A stretch of 64,000 bases of DNA from assembly GCF_013410375.1 (NCBI RefSeq), contig NZ_JACCFL010000001.1, forward strand, positions 3,286,001 through 3,350,000. The letters are read 5' to 3'. The notes under the pieces are model-generated. The model did not search any database. It was not told the origin of the DNA and saw nothing but the letters and a program-made list of their open reading frames with translations. The stretch is from Leifsonia shinshuensis (lineage in GTDB: Bacteria; Actinomycetota; Actinomycetes; Actinomycetales; Microbacteriaceae). Made by a program: the position numbers and the translations under genes. This document shows positions 17,914 to 57,562 of the stretch, piece after piece. Positions within the stretch are counted from its first letter, which is position 1; every line of letters begins with the position of its first letter.

Positions 17914-18519
<606 letters not shown>

Positions 18520-41867: not shown

Positions 41868-41868
<1 letters not shown>
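41758..41868 (-). CDS. 36-residue single-span membrane protein coupled to argH
   Basis: The peptide reads [20 protein letters not shown] at its start and continues as one hydrophobic helix to a short GGRIF end. Its ATG overlaps the argH stop by four bases, the same coupling seen between other genes here, which supports translation. The basic N-terminus predicts an inside-facing end. Function is unknown. Confidence 0.6.
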
Positions 41869-45559
<3,691 letters not shown>

Positions 45560-45563
<4 letters not shown>

Positions 45564-46510
45564 GCGGGCACCACCTCCGTTCCGATTCCGGACTGCGTGA
45601 AGACCTCGAGCAGGATCGAGTGCGCCACGCGTCCGTCGATGATCGCGGCCTTGGGGACGCCGCCGTCGACGGCGTCCAGGCAGGCCGCCATCTTGGGGAT
45701 CATGCCCGACTCGAGCGACGGCAGCAGCTCGCGCAGCTCGGGCGCCGTGATCTTGGACAGCAGCGAGTCCCGGTTCGGCCAGTCGCTGTAGAGCCCGGCG
45801 ACGTCGGTCAGGATGACCAGCTTGGCCGCGCCGAGCGCGACCGCCAGGGCGGCCGCGGCGGCGTCCGCGTTGACGTTGAGCGCCTGGCCCGGGTCGTCGA
45901 TGTCCGGTGCGATCGAGGAGACCACCGGGATGCGGCCGGCGTCGAGCTGGGCGAGCACGCCCTCCGGGTTCACGCCGATGACGTCGCCGACCAGGCCGAG
46001 GTCGACCTCGGCGCCGTCGACCACGGCGCCGCGCTTGCGGCCCTGGAACAGCCCGGCGTCCTCCCCGGACAGGCCGGCGGCGAGCGGGCCGTGCTTGTTG
46101 ATGTTGCTCACGATGTCGCGGTTGATCTGCCCGGTCAGCACCATGCGGACCACGTCCATCGCCTCGGGTGTGGTCACCCGGAAGCCGCCGCGGAACTCGC
46201 TCTCGATGCCGAGCCGGTCGAGCATCGCGGAGATCTGCGGGCCGCCGCCGTGCACGACGACCGGACGGAGGCCGGCGTAGCGCAGGTAGACGATGTCCTC
46301 GGCGAAGGTGCGCTGGAGGTCCTCGCTCACCATGGCGTTGCCGCCGAACTTCACGACGATGATGCGGTCGTGGAAGGTCTTCAGCCAGGGCAGCGACTCG
46401 ATCAGGGTCGCGGCCTTGTCCGCGGCGGCGGCGCGCTCGGCGGCCTCCCCGGTGTCGGTGTCGTCGGTGTCGGTGCCGTCGGTGGCGGTGTCGTCGGTCA
46501 CTGTGGTCAT
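45560..46510 (-). CDS. argB: Acetylglutamate kinase
   Basis: This 316-residue amino-acid kinase phosphorylates N-acetylglutamate. Motifs include [34 protein letters not shown] and the C-terminal [17 protein letters not shown]. The ATG at 46510 is one base after the argJ stop. The first 25 residues are a Thr/Asp-rich stretch ([18 protein letters not shown]) from repeated DNA, before the kinase fold begins. Confidence 0.95.
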
Positions 46511-46511
46511 G

Positions 46512-47666
46512 TCAGCTGGAGTAGGCACTGTTCTCGTGGACGTAGTCGTGGGTCAGGTCGTTGGTGAGGATGGCCGCCGTCTCGTCGCCCGCGTGCAGGT
46601 CGATGAGCACGTGGACGGCGCGCGGCGTCAGGTCGACGAGGTCGCGCGGCTGATCCGGCTCCCCCGCCGTGCACACCTGCACGCCATTGATCGCGACGTC
46701 GATCCCGTACGGGTCGAACTCCGCGTCGGTGGTGCCGACCGCGGCGAGCACGCGGCCCCAGTTGGGGTCGTTGCCGAAGATGGCCGCCTTGAACAGGTTG
46801 GACCGGGACACGGCGCGGCCGACGGTCACGGCGTCGTCCTCGGTGCGGGCGTTGACCACCTCGATCGTGACGTCGTGGGAGGCGCCCTCGGCGTCCTCCT
46901 GGAGCTGCTTGGCCAGGCTGCGGCAGACCTCGGTGAGCGCGAGCGTGAACTCGGCGAGGTCCGGCGTGACGCCGCTGGCACCGGAGCCGAGCAGCGCGAC
47001 GGTGTCGTTGGTGGACATGCAGCCGTCCGAGTCGAGCCGGTCGAAGGTGACCCGGGTGGCGGCGCGGAGGGCGGTGTCGAGCTGCGTCGAGTCGAGCACC
47101 GCGTCGGTGGTGATGACGACGAGCATGGTCGCGAGGCCCGGCGCGAGCATCCCCGCGCCCTTGGCCATGCCGCCGACCGCCCAGCCGGCCGGCGAGACCT
47201 GCTCGGCCTGCTTGGGCTTGGTGTCGGTGGTCATGATCGCCTCGGCGGCGCCGAGCCCGGAGTCGCCGGCGAGCGCGGTGGCCGCCTGGGCGACGCCCGC
47301 GGTCAGCTTGTCGACGTCGAGCTGGTCGCCGATCAGGCCGGTGGAGCAGACCAGCACGTCGCCGGCCGAGACGCCGAGCGCCTCGCCGACGGCCTCCGCC
47401 GTCGCATGCGTGGTCTGGAACCCCTGCGCGCCGGTGTAGCAATTGGCGCCGCCGGAGTTGAGGACGATGGCGGACACGACGCCGTCCGCGATGACCTGCT
47501 CGCTCCAGAGGACCGGGTTCGCCTTGCAGCGGTTCGTCGTGAAGACCGCCGCCGCCGCGGTGAGCGGCCCGCGGTTCTGGACGAGCGCGAGGTCGCGCTT
47601 GCCGCTGGACTTGAGGCCGGCGACGACGCCGGCGGCCGAGAATCCCTTGGCGGTGGTGACGCTCAT
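46512..47666 (-). CDS. argJ: Bifunctional ornithine acetyltransferase / N-acetylglutamate synthase
   Basis: This 384-residue enzyme recycles acetyl groups in the cyclic arginine pathway. The autoproteolytic site is in [20 protein letters not shown], where the threonine becomes the nucleophile of the beta chain. The C-terminus ends [11 protein letters not shown], which matches the usual ENSAYS end. Its ATG overlaps argC by ATGA. Confidence 0.96.
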
Positions 47667-48712
47667 GGCGCGACTCCGTTCACACTGAGGCCGGCGGTCT
47701 CGGCGAGCCCGAGGGCGAGGTTCGCGGACTGGATCGCCGCACCGGCCGTTCCCTTGTACAGATTGTCGATCGCGAGCACGGTGACGACCCGGCCCGCCGC
47801 CTGGTCGAGGGCGACCCCGACCAGCACGCTGTTCGAGCCCAGCACGTCCGCGGTGCGCGGCACGCTGCCGGCGGGCAGCACGTGCACGAACGGCTCGTCG
47901 GCGTAGGCGGCCTCCCAGACCTCCTGCACCTGTGCTGCGGTCACCCCCGGCTTCACCCGGGCCGTGGAGGTCGCCAGGATGCCGCGCGACATCGGCACGA
48001 GCACCGGGGTGAACGAGAGGGTCGGTTCCGTCGCGCCGGCCTTACGGAGATTCTGCTGGATCTCCGGGATGTGCCGGTGGGTGCCGCCGACCGCGTACGG
48101 GTTGGCGGACCCGAGGATCTCGCTGGCGAGGTACATCGTCTTGAGCGACTTGCCCGCCCCGGACGGCCCGACGGCGAGGACGCTGACGATGTCCTCCTCC
48201 TCGATCACGCCGGCGTGGATCCCGGGCGCGAGAGAGAGCGAGACGGCGCTGGCGTTGCAGCCGGGCGCGGCGATCCGCTTCGCCCCGGCGAGGTTCGCGC
48301 GCTGCTTGGCGCCGTCCGGCCCGACGATGAGCTCGGGGACGCCGTACGCCCACGAGCCGTAGTACTCGCCGCCGTAGAAGGCCGCCCAGTCGGCGGGATC
48401 CTCCAGCCGGTGATCGGCGCCCGCGTCCACCACGAGGGTGTCGGCGGCGAGCTGCGCGGCGACCTCCCCCGACCGGCCGTGCGGCAGCGCCAGGAAGACC
48501 ACGTCGTGACCGGCGAGGGTCTCCGGCGTGCTCTCGGAGAGGGTGAGGTGGGCGAGCGAGCGCAGGTGCGGCTGGTGCGCGGCGAGCGGGTGACCGGCGT
48601 TGTTGTGCGCGGTCACGGTGCGGATCTCGAAGTCGGGGTGGTCGGCGAGAATGCGCAGCAGCTCGCCACCCGCGTACCCGGAGGCACCGGCGACGGCAAC
48701 CGAGAGAGTCAT
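47663..48712 (-). CDS. argC: N-acetyl-gamma-glutamyl-phosphate reductase
   Basis: This 349-residue NADPH enzyme makes N-acetylglutamate semialdehyde. The Rossmann motif is [16 protein letters not shown] and the active-site cysteine lies in [16 protein letters not shown] at 48712 is preceded by AAGGAAC. It is the first structural gene of the arginine operon; an arginine-rich leader frame and a 140-base leader precede it. No argR is seen in this window. Confidence 0.95.
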
Positions 48713-48900
48713 GCTTGTTCCTTGATGAGGTGGACGACAGGGGGCCGAGGATCCGGCGACGCCCATGTCCGACCCCACGGGTCGCCCGAGCGCCGCCTAG
48801 CTTCGGCGGTCGCGCAGGCGTCGGCGCATCGAGGGGGCACCGACGGTAAGCATGTAGACCACCCTAGCGCCCTGGCCGGGTCGGTCGCCAAATCGCCGTC
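48713..48900 (-). promoter_or_regulatory. arg operon promoter and putative attenuator leader
   Basis: On the minus strand TAGGGT (48861-48866) lies seven bases before the leader ATG, with TTGGCG about 19 bases further upstream as a weak -35. After the leader stop, CGCCGAAGCTAGGCG and CGACCC-GTG-GGGTCG can form hairpins, and GGCGAC can pair with a later GTCGCC. The first hairpin overlaps the final arginine codons. No clear T-run is seen, so termination could be non-canonical. Confidence 0.5.
48797..48853 (-). CDS. Arginine-rich leader peptide of the arg operon
   Basis: The frame encodes MLTVGAPSMRRRLRDRRS and stops at TAG. Six of the ten codons from residue 9 to residue 18 are arginine (CGC or CGA). 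The ATG is seven bases after a TAGGGT -10 element, so transcription probably starts at the ATG itself and the peptide is read from a leaderless RNA. It ends 84 bases before argC. Ribosome stalling at the arginine codons would sense charged tRNA-Arg; this mechanism is inferred from layout. Confidence 0.6.
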   Translation of the reverse strand: MLTVGAPSMRRRLRDRRS

Positions 48901-48923
48901 GTCACACAACGCCCGCCACCACG

Positions 48924-49043
48924 CGATTCGTGCCGAATGTCGCGTTCGGCGCAGCCGAGTCCACATACGTGACGAATGTGCCCACCGCGATTCGTGCCGA
49001 ATGTCGACTCTGGCGGCGCCAGAGTCGACATTCGGCACGAATC
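48924..49043. repeat. Intergenic palindromic repeats, ATTCGTGCCGAAT family (two copies)
   Basis: A perfect palindrome spans 48989-49043 with 27-base arms and a one-base centre; it begins GATTCGTGCCGAATGTCGAC. An imperfect relative lies at about 48924-48977. The perfect copy is eight bases beyond the pheT stop and probably terminates pheST. Relatives occur at 57421-57562. Confidence 0.75.
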
Positions 49044-49051
49044 GGCGGCTT

Positions 49052-51595
49052 CTACTCGCGGATGTGCGCCCCGAACAGCTCCTCCGCCCGCGCCGCGCCC
49101 GCGAGCTTCGCCTCGCTGGCCTCGGCCGCGGTGAGGGTGCGGTCGTCCGCACGGAACCGCAGCGCGAAAGTGAGGCTCTTGTGGCCGGACGGGAGGCCCG
49201 CGCCGCGGTAGTCGTCGACCAGACGGATGTCCTCCAGGAGCTCGCCCGCGCCGTCCCGCACTGCGGCGAGCACGTCGCCCGCGGGGACCTCGTCGCGCAC
49301 GACCAGGGACAGGTCCTGCGTCGCCGCCGGGAAGCCGGCGATCACACCCGCGACGATGTCGGCGGGCGCCACGTCGATGAGCGCGTCCAGGTCGAGCTCG
49401 TAGACGGCCACGACGCGCGGGAGGTCGAGGTCCTCCGCGATCGCGGGCAGCAGCTCCCCGGCGTAACCGACGACGACGCGCGAGCCGTCTGCGGCGTGCG
49501 CGACCAGCTGCGCCGTGCGTCCGGGGTGGAAGGCGTGGTGGCGGCTCTGCACCGGTTCGATCCGCACGCCCACGGCCGTCGCGGTCTGTTGGACGGCGGT
49601 CAGCGCGTCGGCGAGGCCGGCCGCGAGGGGCGCCTGGCCCGGCTGCTTCTCCACGACGTTGCCGACGATCAGGCCGGCGAGGTGGCGGGGCTGCGCGGGG
49701 ATGCCCGCGTTCAGGGCGGCGAGGACGTCGTCGCCCGGGAGGGCGGCGCCCAGCGGCAGCTCCTCGCTGCCGAGGGCGGCGCCGCTCGGCAGGAAGACGG
49801 TGCCGAGTTCGTAGAGGCGCAGGTCGACGAGACCGCGGGCCAGGTTGCGCTTGGCCACGTCGATCAGGCCGGGGAGCAGCGAGGTCCGCAGGTACGGGGC
49901 GGTCGCGTCGAGCGCGTTCGCCAGGCGGACCGCGGGCACGCCGCCGGCCTCGGGCGAGCCGAACAGGTCGTTCTGCGCCTCCGAGACGAACGGGAAGGCG
50001 AGCACCTCGGTCGCGCCGTTGTCGGCGAGCATCTGCGCGACGGCGCGGCGCAGCTTCTGCGCGCGGGTCAGCCCGCGGCCGGGGGGCGCGACGGGCAGCA
50101 CCGACGGGATGCGGTCGAATCCGACGATGCGGGCGACCTCTTCGGCCAGGTCGGACTTGTCGCGCAGGTCGGGACGCCAGCTCGGCGGCACGACCAGCAG
50201 CGCGTCGCCGTCGCTCGTCACCGTCCCGCCGATCTCCGCGAGCGCGCCGCGGACCTCGTCGTCGGTGAAGTCCACGCCGATCAAGTTCGGGATGTACGCG
50301 TTCGGCAGGCGGATGGGCTCGGCCTCCCCCGCGGTGTCGAGCAGCGAGCCGAGCTCGTCGGCGTGGCCGCCGGCGAGCTGCTCCAGGAGCTGCACGACGC
50401 GCGCGGCCGCCGCGACGGCGACCCGCGGGTCCACGCCGCGCTCGAACCGCTTGGACGCCTCGCTCGGCAGCTTGTGCCGGCGGGCGGTGCGGGCGATGGA
50501 CACCGGGTCGAAGTTGGCGGCCTCCACCAGCACGTTGCTGGTGCCCGCGCCGATCTCGGTGGACGCGCCGCCCATCACGCCGGCCAGGCCGATCGCGCCG
50601 GACTCGTCGGTGATGAGGAGGTCCTCCGGATCCAGCGCCCGGGTCTGGTCGTCCAGCGTCACCAGGGTCTCGCCCGGGTGCGCGCGGCGCACGACGATGC
50701 CGCCGGAGAGCTTGTCGAGGTCGTAGCCGTGGATCGGCTGGCCGAGCTCGAGCATCACGTAGTTGGTGATGTCCACGACGAGCGAGATGGAGCGGATGCC
50801 GGCGAGCTTCAGCCGCGCGACCATCCACGGCGGGGTCGGCCGGGAGCCGTCGACGTCGCGGACCACGCGGGTCACGAACACGGTCGCGCCGACGCGGCCG
50901 CGGATCGGTGCGCGGTCGTCGATCGTCACGCTGAAGCCGTGCGCGTGCGCACCGGCGGAGTGCACGCGGACCGCCTCGGCCGGGTCGCGGAAGGCCGCGC
51001 CGGTCGCGTGCGAGTACTCGCGGGCGATGCCGCGGATCGAGAACGCGTAGCCGCGGTCGGGGGTGACGTTGACCTCCACAGCGGTGTCGTCCAGGCCGAG
51101 CAGCGAGATGGCGTCGGTGCCGACCTCCGGGTCGAGCCCGAGCGTCGACAGCCGCAGGATGCCCTCGTGGTCGTCGCCGAGGCCGAGCTCGCGCGCGGAG
51201 GCGATCATGCCGTCCGAGACGTGGCCGTAGGTCTTGCGCGCGGCGATCGGGAACGGTCCGGGCAGGATCGAGCCGGGCAGCGTCACGACGACCTTGTCAC
51301 CCAGCAGGAAGTTGCGGGCGCCGCAGACGATGCCGCGCACGTCCTCGCCGCCGTCGGCGGCCTTCTGCCCCTCCGGTGCGACGCGCACGCGGCACCAGCG
51401 GATGGTCTTGCCGTTGCTCTGCGGCTCCTCCTCGAACTCCAGCACCTGGCCGACGACCACAGGGCCGGTGATCTCGAAGGTGTGGACGTCCTCCTCCTCG
51501 AGCCCGACGGACACGAGGGCGGCGTGGACCTCCTCGGCCGTCGTACCGGGCTCCAGGTCGACGTACTCGCCGAGCCAACTCAGGGGGACGCGCAT
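49052..51595 (-). CDS. pheT: Phenylalanyl-tRNA synthetase beta subunit
   Basis: This 847-residue subunit has an N-terminal tRNA-binding domain (VVGQVLEFEEEPQSNGKTIR, with RNFLLGDKVVVTLPG), B3/B4 editing and B5 domains in the middle and an anticodon-binding FDX-ACB domain at the C-terminus (SLTFALRFRADDRTLTAAEA). MRVPLSWLGEYVDLEPGTT is the standard start. Its ATG overlaps the pheS stop by four bases. Confidence 0.97.
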   Translation of the reverse strand: MRVPLSWLGEYVDLEPGTTAEEVHAALVSVGLEEEDVHTFEITGPVVVGQVLEFEEEPQSNGKTIRWCRVRVAPEGQKAADGGEDVRGIVCGARNFLLGDKVVVTLPGSILPGPFPIAARKTYGHVSDGMIASARELGLGDDHEGILRLSTLGLDPEVGTDAISLLGLDDTAVEVNVTPDRGYAFSIRGIAREYSHATGAAFRDPAEAVRVHSAGAHAHGFSVTIDDRAPIRGRVGATVFVTRVVRDVDGSRPTPPWMVARLKLAGIRSISLVVDITNYVMLELGQPIHGYDLDKLSGGIVVRRAHPGETLVTLDDQTRALDPEDLLITDESGAIGLAGVMGGASTEIGAGTSNVLVEAANFDPVSIARTARRHKLPSEASKRFERGVDPRVAVAAAARVVQLLEQLAGGHADELGSLLDTAGEAEPIRLPNAYIPNLIGVDFTDDEVRGALAEIGGTVTSDGDALLVVPPSWRPDLRDKSDLAEEVARIVGFDRIPSVLPVAPPGRGLTRAQKLRRAVAQMLADNGATEVLAFPFVSEAQNDLFGSPEAGGVPAVRLANALDATAPYLRTSLLPGLIDVAKRNLARGLVDLRLYELGTVFLPSGAALGSEELPLGAALPGDDVLAALNAGIPAQPRHLAGLIVGNVVEKQPGQAPLAAGLADALTAVQQTATAVGVRIEPVQSRHHAFHPGRTAQLVAHAADGSRVVVGYAGELLPAIAEDLDLPRVVAVYELDLDALIDVAPADIVAGVIAGFPAATQDLSLVVRDEVPAGDVLAAVRDGAGELLEDIRLVDDYRGAGLPSGHKSLTFALRFRADDRTLTAAEASEAKLAGAARAEELFGAHIRE

Positions 51596-57420: not shown

Positions 57421-57562
57421 GGACATTCGGCACGAATGTCGCGTTTGGCGCCGCCAATGTCGACATTCCGCACGAATCTGCACGCATCGGCTGACCGCAC
57501 ATTCGTGACGTATGTTGCGTTTGGCGCCCCCAAAGGCGACATTCGTCACGAATGCGTTGCGC
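57421..57562. repeat. Intergenic palindromic repeats, ATTCGTGCCGAAT family (two copies)
   Basis: Two imperfect palindromes, about 57421-57478 and 57502-57560, share ATTCG...GAATGTCG arms and TGGCGCC centres with the elements at 48924-49043. They sit between convergent stops. The second can form CATTCGTGACG/CGTCACGAATG stems with a TTTGG/CCAAA extension. Confidence 0.7.

Follow-up and report, generated by a model that had tools for sequence, protein, structure and literature searches.

A candidate leaderless, ribosome-mediated arginine attenuator upstream of argC in Leifsonia shinshuensis and related Microbacteriaceae

The trp, his and leu attenuators of enterobacteria combine a leader peptide carrying regulatory codons with alternative helices; their leaders are preceded by a Shine-Dalgarno (SD) sequence and the attenuators use intrinsic terminators. 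ArgR is a trans-acting repressor of arg operons that works via the ARG box, and T-boxes bind tRNA directly, without a leader peptide. The fungal arginine attenuator peptide (the uORF of arg-2 and CPA1) is a eukaryotic arrest peptide which senses free arginine. Leaderless poly-cysteine short ORFs were reportedly described in mycobacteria by Canestrari et al. in 2020. No bacterial arginine operon controlled by a leader-peptide attenuator is known to us, and the matches listed for the open-licence literature included no paper on such a case. A 2005 survey of Actinobacteria, with Leifsonia xyli in its genome list, places arginine in the excerpts used here among the pathways without a conserved RNA structure, and names arginine T-boxes (PMC1262725). 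Excerpts of a second paper describe ilvB1 attenuation, cite the leaderless poly-Cys attenuators of mycobacteria and call the cysteine genes regulated by translation attenuation (PMC13236596).

The arginine operon of Leifsonia shinshuensis studied here is preceded by a short putative leader that shares features with several of these systems. Like the trp, his and leu attenuators, it has a putative leader peptide with candidate regulatory codons, and perhaps alternative helices; unlike them, it has neither an SD-led leader nor an intrinsic terminator that we could find. It would act on the same operon as ArgR and its ARG box, presumably in response to the same signal, but ArgR acts in trans and was found neither in the studied genome nor in other members of the family. 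With the fungal arginine attenuator peptide it would have in common an arginine-dependent uORF on an arginine gene, with no known homology, and with arginine T-boxes the control of arginine genes by RNA. An Rfam search at gathering score of the window (the whole stretch of 64,000 nt that was analysed) returned a tRNA at 18446-18519 as its sole match, with no T-box and nothing at the leader. Like the mycobacterial poly-Cys ORFs, as these are outlined in excerpts, it is an apparently leaderless short ORF rich in one amino acid and located before the operon for the biosynthesis of that amino acid. It differs from them in having Arg codons before arg genes where they have Cys codons before cysteine genes, in belonging to the Microbacteriaceae, in its conserved RNA helices and in its occurrence in a family that yielded no ArgR. 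In the ilvB1 attenuator of Mycobacterium tuberculosis, as excerpted, the position of the ribosome on regulatory codons picks exclusive folds, as we propose here, and a ribosome at the stop codon masks the antiterminator, but ilvB1 has a U-tract Rho-independent terminator and none was found at the argC leader (PMC13236596). Our reading, to which we give a probability of roughly 0.77, is that the locus is a leaderless, cis-acting, ribosome-mediated arginine attenuator in place of ArgR. Comparison of relatives points to the frame, its leaderless promoter geometry, the enrichment of Arg and CGA codons, helix 2:3 and, less strongly, helix 1:4 as the parts of this element.

As listed in Table 1, all features of the locus lie on the minus strand. 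TAGGGT is followed by the 7-nt spacer GGTCTAC and by the start codon ATG (48853-48851) of an 18-codon frame, MLTVGAPSMRRRLRDRRS, whose stop codon TAG (48799-48797) is located 84 nt before the argC ATG (48712). Arg accounts for six of its final ten codons. An earlier note on this DNA had described the frame at these distances from TAGGGT and argC, with these six Arg codons, and the window sequence confirmed the description. The upstream neighbours of the leader and argC are pheS and pheT (NCBIfam), and pheT ends 198 nt before the leader. Downstream of argD, we take one ORF from its sequence to be argF (ornithine carbamoyltransferase), and the next presumably holds argH (argininosuccinate lyase) in its 3' part. 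The nearest named relative found was Leifsonia sp. Leaf336, with an argC identity of 93%.

Table 1. Features of the putative argC leader and of the arginine operon in the window.
Feature	Position	Strand	Basis or remark
-35-like element TTGGCG	48886..48891	minus	19 nt 5' of -10; sequence
-10 element TAGGGT	48861..48866	minus	7 nt 5' of leader ATG; sequence
Putative leaderless leader-peptide ORF MLTVGAPSMRRRLRDRRS with stop TAG	48797..48853	minus	sequence, kept in relatives
Arg codon cluster R10-R17, CGC CGA CGC CTG CGC GAC CGC CGA	48803..48826	minus	sequence
CGA codon, last Arg 5' of segment 2	48803..48805	minus	CGA in 67/71 leaders
Segment 1 GCGCGAC, within leader codons, putative partner of segment 4	48809..48815	minus	pairing tests
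Segment 2 GGCGGCGC, begins at G of stop codon	48790..48797	minus	covariation with segment 3
Hairpin CGACCC-GTG-GGGTCG, between segments 2 and 3	48770..48784	minus	sequence
Segment 3 GCGTCGCC, putative partner of segment 2	48755..48762	minus	covariation, permutation test
Segment 4 GTCGTCC, immediately 5' of argC ribosome site	48732..48738	minus	pairing tests
argC Shine-Dalgarno-like AAGGA	48719..48723	minus	sequence
argC, N-acetyl-gamma-glutamyl-phosphate reductase	47663..48712	minus	NCBIfam TIGR01850, E 3.8e-103
argJ	46512..47666	minus	NCBIfam NF003802
argB	45560..46528	minus	NCBIfam TIGR00761
argD	44334..45563	minus	NCBIfam NF002874
ORF taken to be argF	43319..44302	minus	open reading frame; name from sequence
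ORF presumed to hold argH in its 3' part	41868..43916	minus	open reading frame; exact argH start not fixed

The argC gene was present in 170 of 179 Microbacteriaceae genomes, and its upstream DNA was taken for 130 of the 170, the other 40 being left out. A leader was called when TANNNT stood 5-9 nt before an ATG or GTG, the frame had 15-45 codons and started 100-260 nt before argC, and at least 4 Arg fell within a 10-codon stretch. By these fixed criteria a leaderless Arg-rich frame was found upstream of argC in 76 of the 130 genomes, compared with a mean of 0.5 and a maximum of 2 of 130 in 20 rounds of dinucleotide shuffling and with 1/130 on the antisense strand. When the threshold was raised to 5 Arg, 65 of the 130 genomes retained a leader (shuffle mean 0.1; antisense 0). 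At each locus the candidate richest in Arg was taken, so that Arg content and the -10 element are partly selected and the shuffles serve as control. The Arg-rich leader frame upstream of argC is not due to chance, and its frame and Arg codons are conserved in relatives; a lack of conservation, which the earlier note had named as refuting its interpretation, did not occur, and that interpretation is supported. Two leaders with fewer than 4 Arg in 10 codons (G082 and G145) were added by hand, which makes 78 of 130 genomes with a leader and 52 without. Counting one genome per genus, 41 of 69 genera had a leader, one of the 41 being a hand-added case. We also used 69 of 80 upstream regions of named argC loci, leaving out 11 Clostridia/Eubacteria loci; some of the 69 duplicate genomes of the family sample. 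A leader was present in 21 of the 45 loci counted as Microbacteriaceae (0 of the 20 Curtobacterium-like loci among them) and in 0 of 24 loci from other families. The 99 leaders (78 genome loci and 21 named loci) were thinned at 90% identity to a set of 71. These encode 18 to 39 residues (median 28), stop 61 to 128 nt before argC (median 84) and often end in a variant of LRRRLxxRRI or RRARRLSATPRR.

An RNA model built from the leader alignment, R1, gave one strong match in the whole genome, at argC (1.7e-6), and 12 weaker ones with E up to 1. Of these 12, the best one (0.0046) was inspected; it sits inside long open frames, and on this inspection no second operon was found. A script search of the region upstream of argG in the same genome gave no leaderless short frame and no Arg leader. 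Given this and the single strong R1 site, the element appears to be tied to the argC operon. Applied with stricter filters to 119 genomes of the order, R1 matched 8 of them. Six belong to the eight listed members of the family (G164 and G285 gave no match) and two lie outside it; in these two the matches fall within long open frames and were rejected. The match in G271 is located at a contig end. The likely start codon of argG is a GTG 7 nt after TAAGCT, and this gene may itself be leaderless.

In 68 of the 71 leaders TANNNT is located 6 nt (55 leaders) or 7 nt (13 leaders) before the start codon, a spacing of 5-9 nt being the selection criterion. In the leader logo, positions -12, -11 and -7 are T, A and T at about 80% each, positions -37 and -36 are T (68% and 73%) and position -1 is C (76%); TTGNNN occurs between -45 and -25 in 32 of the 71. 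A strict sigma-70 consensus scan of 48600-49060 detected no promoter, and our promoter claim is made because of the comparison of relatives: the geometry of the 71 aligned leaders fits a transcription start at the leader start codon. The argC gene has AGG in its SD window in 69 of the 71 leader-bearing loci. In the 52 leader-less genomes, argC itself is preceded by TANNNT at 5-8 nt in 40 cases; the leader thus goes with an SD-led argC. Two main arrangements are suggested by these alignments, a leaderless leader followed by an SD-led argC, or an apparently leaderless argC. Among the 71 leader loci, 48 also carry TANNNT at 5-8 nt from the argC start codon, often as TAAGGT, and this element could be a second, leaderless promoter bypassing the leader. 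If so, some other, unknown repressor might govern the arginine genes, with argC expressed from its own leaderless promoter and the leader playing a minor role or none. The boxes before argC in both classes of loci speak for this, but the leader class has AGG there in 69 of 71 and no -35 signal accompanies its argC-proximal TANNNT, and the studied window has CAAGGA, not TANNNT, before argC; we consider such an arrangement quite unlikely. In leader loci such as L091, L110 and L133, TAAGGT 6 nt before the argC ATG is both SD-like and -10-like.

A search of the studied genome for argR, which the earlier note had called for, found none: the whole-genome profile search gave no match to the ArgR domains PF01316 and PF02863, for which control searches were positive in 9 and 8 of 14 genomes, respectively. 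Likewise, ArgR was found in 0 of the 150 Microbacteriaceae genomes sampled. In the sample of the order it was present in 181 of 198 genomes, that is, in 181 of the 184 outside the Microbacteriaceae; the 17 genomes in which it was not found are 14 Microbacteriaceae, two reduced genomes (about 0.8-0.9 Mb) and one draft. The two reduced genomes, G229 and G353, belong to genus g117 of family f4. From this distribution within the order, occurrence of the leader and lack of ArgR seem to coincide in one clade. Since the leader is common to much of the Microbacteriaceae, where ArgR was not found, it probably does the job of the repressor there. Much of the family appears to have swapped a DNA-binding repressor for an RNA switch read by the ribosome, and provides many natural variants with which to test how a regulator is replaced without loss of pathway control.

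The leader alignment contains, from 5' to 3', the conserved block CGNCGACGCC with the Arg codons, CGCCGAnnCTAGGCGACGC, a variable hairpin, GGCGTCGCCG and a C-rich stretch ending in AAGGT. CGCCGAnnCTAGGCGACGC corresponds to segment 2, at the stop or within the last codons, and GGCGTCGCCG to segment 3; the hairpins between them differ in sequence among relatives, as judged by eye. In helix 2:3 standard pairs filled 89.8% of cells (86.9% in shuffled alignments), double-sided changes were seen in 28 cells (14.8 +- 2.9 in shuffles; 0/500) and the covariation score was 0.173 (0.120 in shuffles; 0/500). All six slid controls gave a lower double-change count and a lower covariation score. The number of pairs with a change on both sides was not above that of shuffles (155/500), and two of the nine pairs fail, in 22 and 23 of the 71 sequences. 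For the whole alignment RNAalifold returned helix 2:3 and nothing else, and for the part after the stop it returned no stable consensus.

A shuffle z-test of helix 3:4 did not discriminate (mean -0.56, against -0.65 for a window before segment 2), and permutation tests were therefore used in its place. Cognate partners were compared with permuted ones in 66 of the 71 sequences, five being left out by length rules, with 5000 permutations; an earlier run on all 71 sequences agreed. Cognate pairing was better than in all permutations for 2:3, 1:4 and 3:4 (0/5000 each), and the control pairings were matched or exceeded by permuted partners in 1001 (hairpin:4), 4102 (2:4), 2959 (codons:2) and 4597 (hairpin:3) of 5000. 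Helices 2:3 and 1:4 hold in both stop-codon classes (at most 1/5000; for 1:4, 1/5000 in each class). Helix 3:4 gave 0/5000 in the TGA class and 813/5000 (243/2000 in the earlier run) in the TAG class, to which the studied window belongs and in which 3:4 is not significant. In a nearest-relative test p was 0.007-0.013 for 2:3 and 0.010-0.025 for 1:4, and 3:4 failed (p 0.10-0.20). Helix 1:4 joins leader codons to the RNA just 5' of the argC ribosome site, and the sequence of the studied genome also allows it. In several genomes segment 1 varies in sequence and in the residues it encodes with its pairing to segment 4 kept, for example GGGCGAC/GTCGTCC in G028, GGTCGAG/CTCGACC in G025 and CGAGCG/CGCTCG in G142. 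Segment 4 pairs equally well (0/5000) with a 16-nt window shifted 8 nt deeper into the leader, and segment 1 is therefore not sharply delimited. These comparisons suggest that helices 2:3 and 1:4 are supported and mutually compatible, 1:4 less strongly than 2:3, and that their exclusive partner 3:4 is partly supported; the 5' flank of segment 3 may pair instead with segment 4. The competing hairpins proposed in the earlier note can be specified as 2:3, 1:4 and, less surely, 3:4. The hairpin that the note placed across the last Arg codons, here 1:2, is present in the studied genome as CCGCC-GAAGCTA-GGCGG and spans the final Arg codons together with the stop. It was rejected: it shows no covariation, its 79.6% of paired cells equals its shuffles, and three of its four pairs are unpaired in 22, 17 and 19 of the 71 sequences.

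The overlap of leader codons with the conserved helix strands 1 and 2 raises the alternative that a GC-rich RNA element gives rise to the Arg frame incidentally and that the structure of this element regulates argC without translation of the leader. We hold this to be highly improbable, as the Arg enrichment is confined to the leader frame: averaged over the 71 leaders, the 12 codons 5' of segment 2 include 5.61 Arg codons in frame, against 0.75 and 1.80 when read in the two alternative frames, and the leader frame had the most Arg in 69 of 71 leaders. Moreover, the start codon and the -10 element are positioned jointly, synonymous Arg codons vary, and many leaders, though not the studied one, have Arg codons in the N-terminal part outside the helices. 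A sequence-specific arrest peptide sensing free arginine, not tRNA charging, would suit the basic, Arg-rich part near the stop codon of the leaders. Such a peptide would be expected to retain its side chains, but the residues between the Arg codons vary, their codons covary with the RNA partner and the lengths run from 18 to 39 residues; this too is very unlikely.

In 67 of the 71 leaders, CGA is the Arg codon closest to segment 2 on its 5' side; in the argC genes of 30 genomes, 24 out of 436 Arg codons are CGA. We found 45 tRNA genes in the genome and typed 36 of them, with the Arg anticodons ACG, CCG, TCT and CCT. The nine untyped genes are all longer (82-91 bases by coordinates), which suggests tRNAs for Leu, Ser or Tyr, not Arg. 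Given this set of Arg anticodons, CGA is presumably read by the ACG tRNA via inosine in the studied genome. Inosine-mediated reading of CGA is a slow pairing, and a codon-specific pause at CGA, likely through I:A wobble, is a possible sensor. For the ribosome we assumed a footprint reaching 12 nt upstream and 15 nt downstream of its P site. With the stop codon in the A site, such a ribosome would cover segment 2 in 69 of the 71 leaders, and at least one Arg codon at which it would cover segment 1 and leave segment 2 free is also found in 69 of 71. At 285 of the 552 Arg codons, those upstream of the cluster, a stall would leave segments 1 and 2 both free and would favour the OFF fold under deep starvation. 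In predicted ensembles, from which segment 1 was left out and in which the competition is partly built in, masking of segment 2 raised the expected number of 3:4 pairs from 0.99 to 7.45; 52 of 66 sequences switched toward 3:4 and none in the opposite direction. Predicted pairing of the SD, again with segment 1 left out, was nearly equal in the two states (0.53 and 0.47).

For the attenuator we propose the following sequence of events. Transcription would begin at the A of the leader ATG, as the promoter geometry suggests, so that a ribosome would load on the bare 5' end and trail the RNA polymerase through the Arg codon cluster. Segment 4 could pair with segment 1, in a fold that encloses helix 2:3; the 5' flank of segment 3 is another possible partner. 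With charged tRNA-Arg abundant, the ribosome would reach the stop codon, cover segment 2 and depart; segment 4 would then be paired, with segment 3 while segment 2 is covered and with segment 1 after release, and argC would be poorly translated. When charged tRNA-Arg is scarce, the ribosome would linger on the cluster and mask segment 1 while helix 2:3 ties up segment 3, leaving segment 4 free and argC open to translation. The rare, conserved CGA codon may sharpen the pause, and the remaining genes of the operon would follow argC by coupling or reduced polarity. We infer that the leader is translated, that it responds to arginine and that the output is translational; the sign of the switch (stall = on) is derived from physiology and geometry. 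Both sign and output of such a leaderless attenuator can be measured directly.

Neither a terminator-like site nor a U-tract terminator was found in 48600-49060, which makes control of argC translation likelier than classical termination, and the output is probably argC translation initiation, not intrinsic termination. The last 16 nt before argC contain 18% T (66 loci). The main rival to a translational output keeps the same sensor but lets leader translation control termination by Rho. Rho would load on the C-rich, G-poor RNA that separates segment 3 from the argC ribosome site, and the leader folds would expose or hide this loading site. We regard this rival as rather unlikely. The 28 nt before the SD hold 44% C and 17% G in 66 leader loci, compared with 33% C and 39% G for the same window in 20 leaderless-argC loci, but this C-richness is equally demanded by pairing with the G-rich segments 1 and 3. 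Rho would fit the missing intrinsic terminator, and excerpts of PMC1262725 propose it for the cysteine leader peptides of Actinobacteria; the stalled state, however, frees segment 4, which by our inference would mean off through Rho at arginine scarcity, the wrong sign unless the states are reversed.

In Curtobacterium-like genomes and some others, argC closely follows pheT without a separate leader. In nine of the 12 loci shown, the last pheT codons are CGA-TTC-GGGGCG, followed by segment 3- and 4-like sequence (L016, L017, L021, L040, L118 from G004, L136 from G150, L149 from G087, L166 from G105 and L175 from G031); the pheT end of G110 reads CGA-TCA-GGGGCG, and G133 and L057 do not fit. 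This Arg codon of pheT is CGA in 28 of the 34 loci that a script rule assigned to the leader-less class, many of them close relatives, compared with 6 of 35 loci with a leader. The pheT 3' end may act as the leader of argC in loci of this leader-less class. In sequence and phase, R-L-S-A-T-P-R-R at the end of the leader is similar to R-F-G-A-T-L-R-D at the end of PheT; that the leader arose from such a pheT end is a guess, but one that would fit. The fuller scenario, in which an ancestor of the Microbacteriaceae lost ArgR and gained in its stead a leaderless, CGA-sensing arginine attenuator from the pheT 3' end, and in which this end, with the same CGA and similar helices downstream, may lead argC in Curtobacterium, Frigoribacterium and allies, is tentative, and we think it unlikely; if true, a tRNA synthetase gene, pheT, would double as an attenuator peptide. 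Between pheT and the leader of the studied genome (48925-49043) there is a repeated palindromic element, CGACATTCGGCACGAATC with its complement, which occurs again at 57421-57554; CGACATTCGGCACGAATC has six matches at two or fewer mismatches, against none in 100 shuffles.
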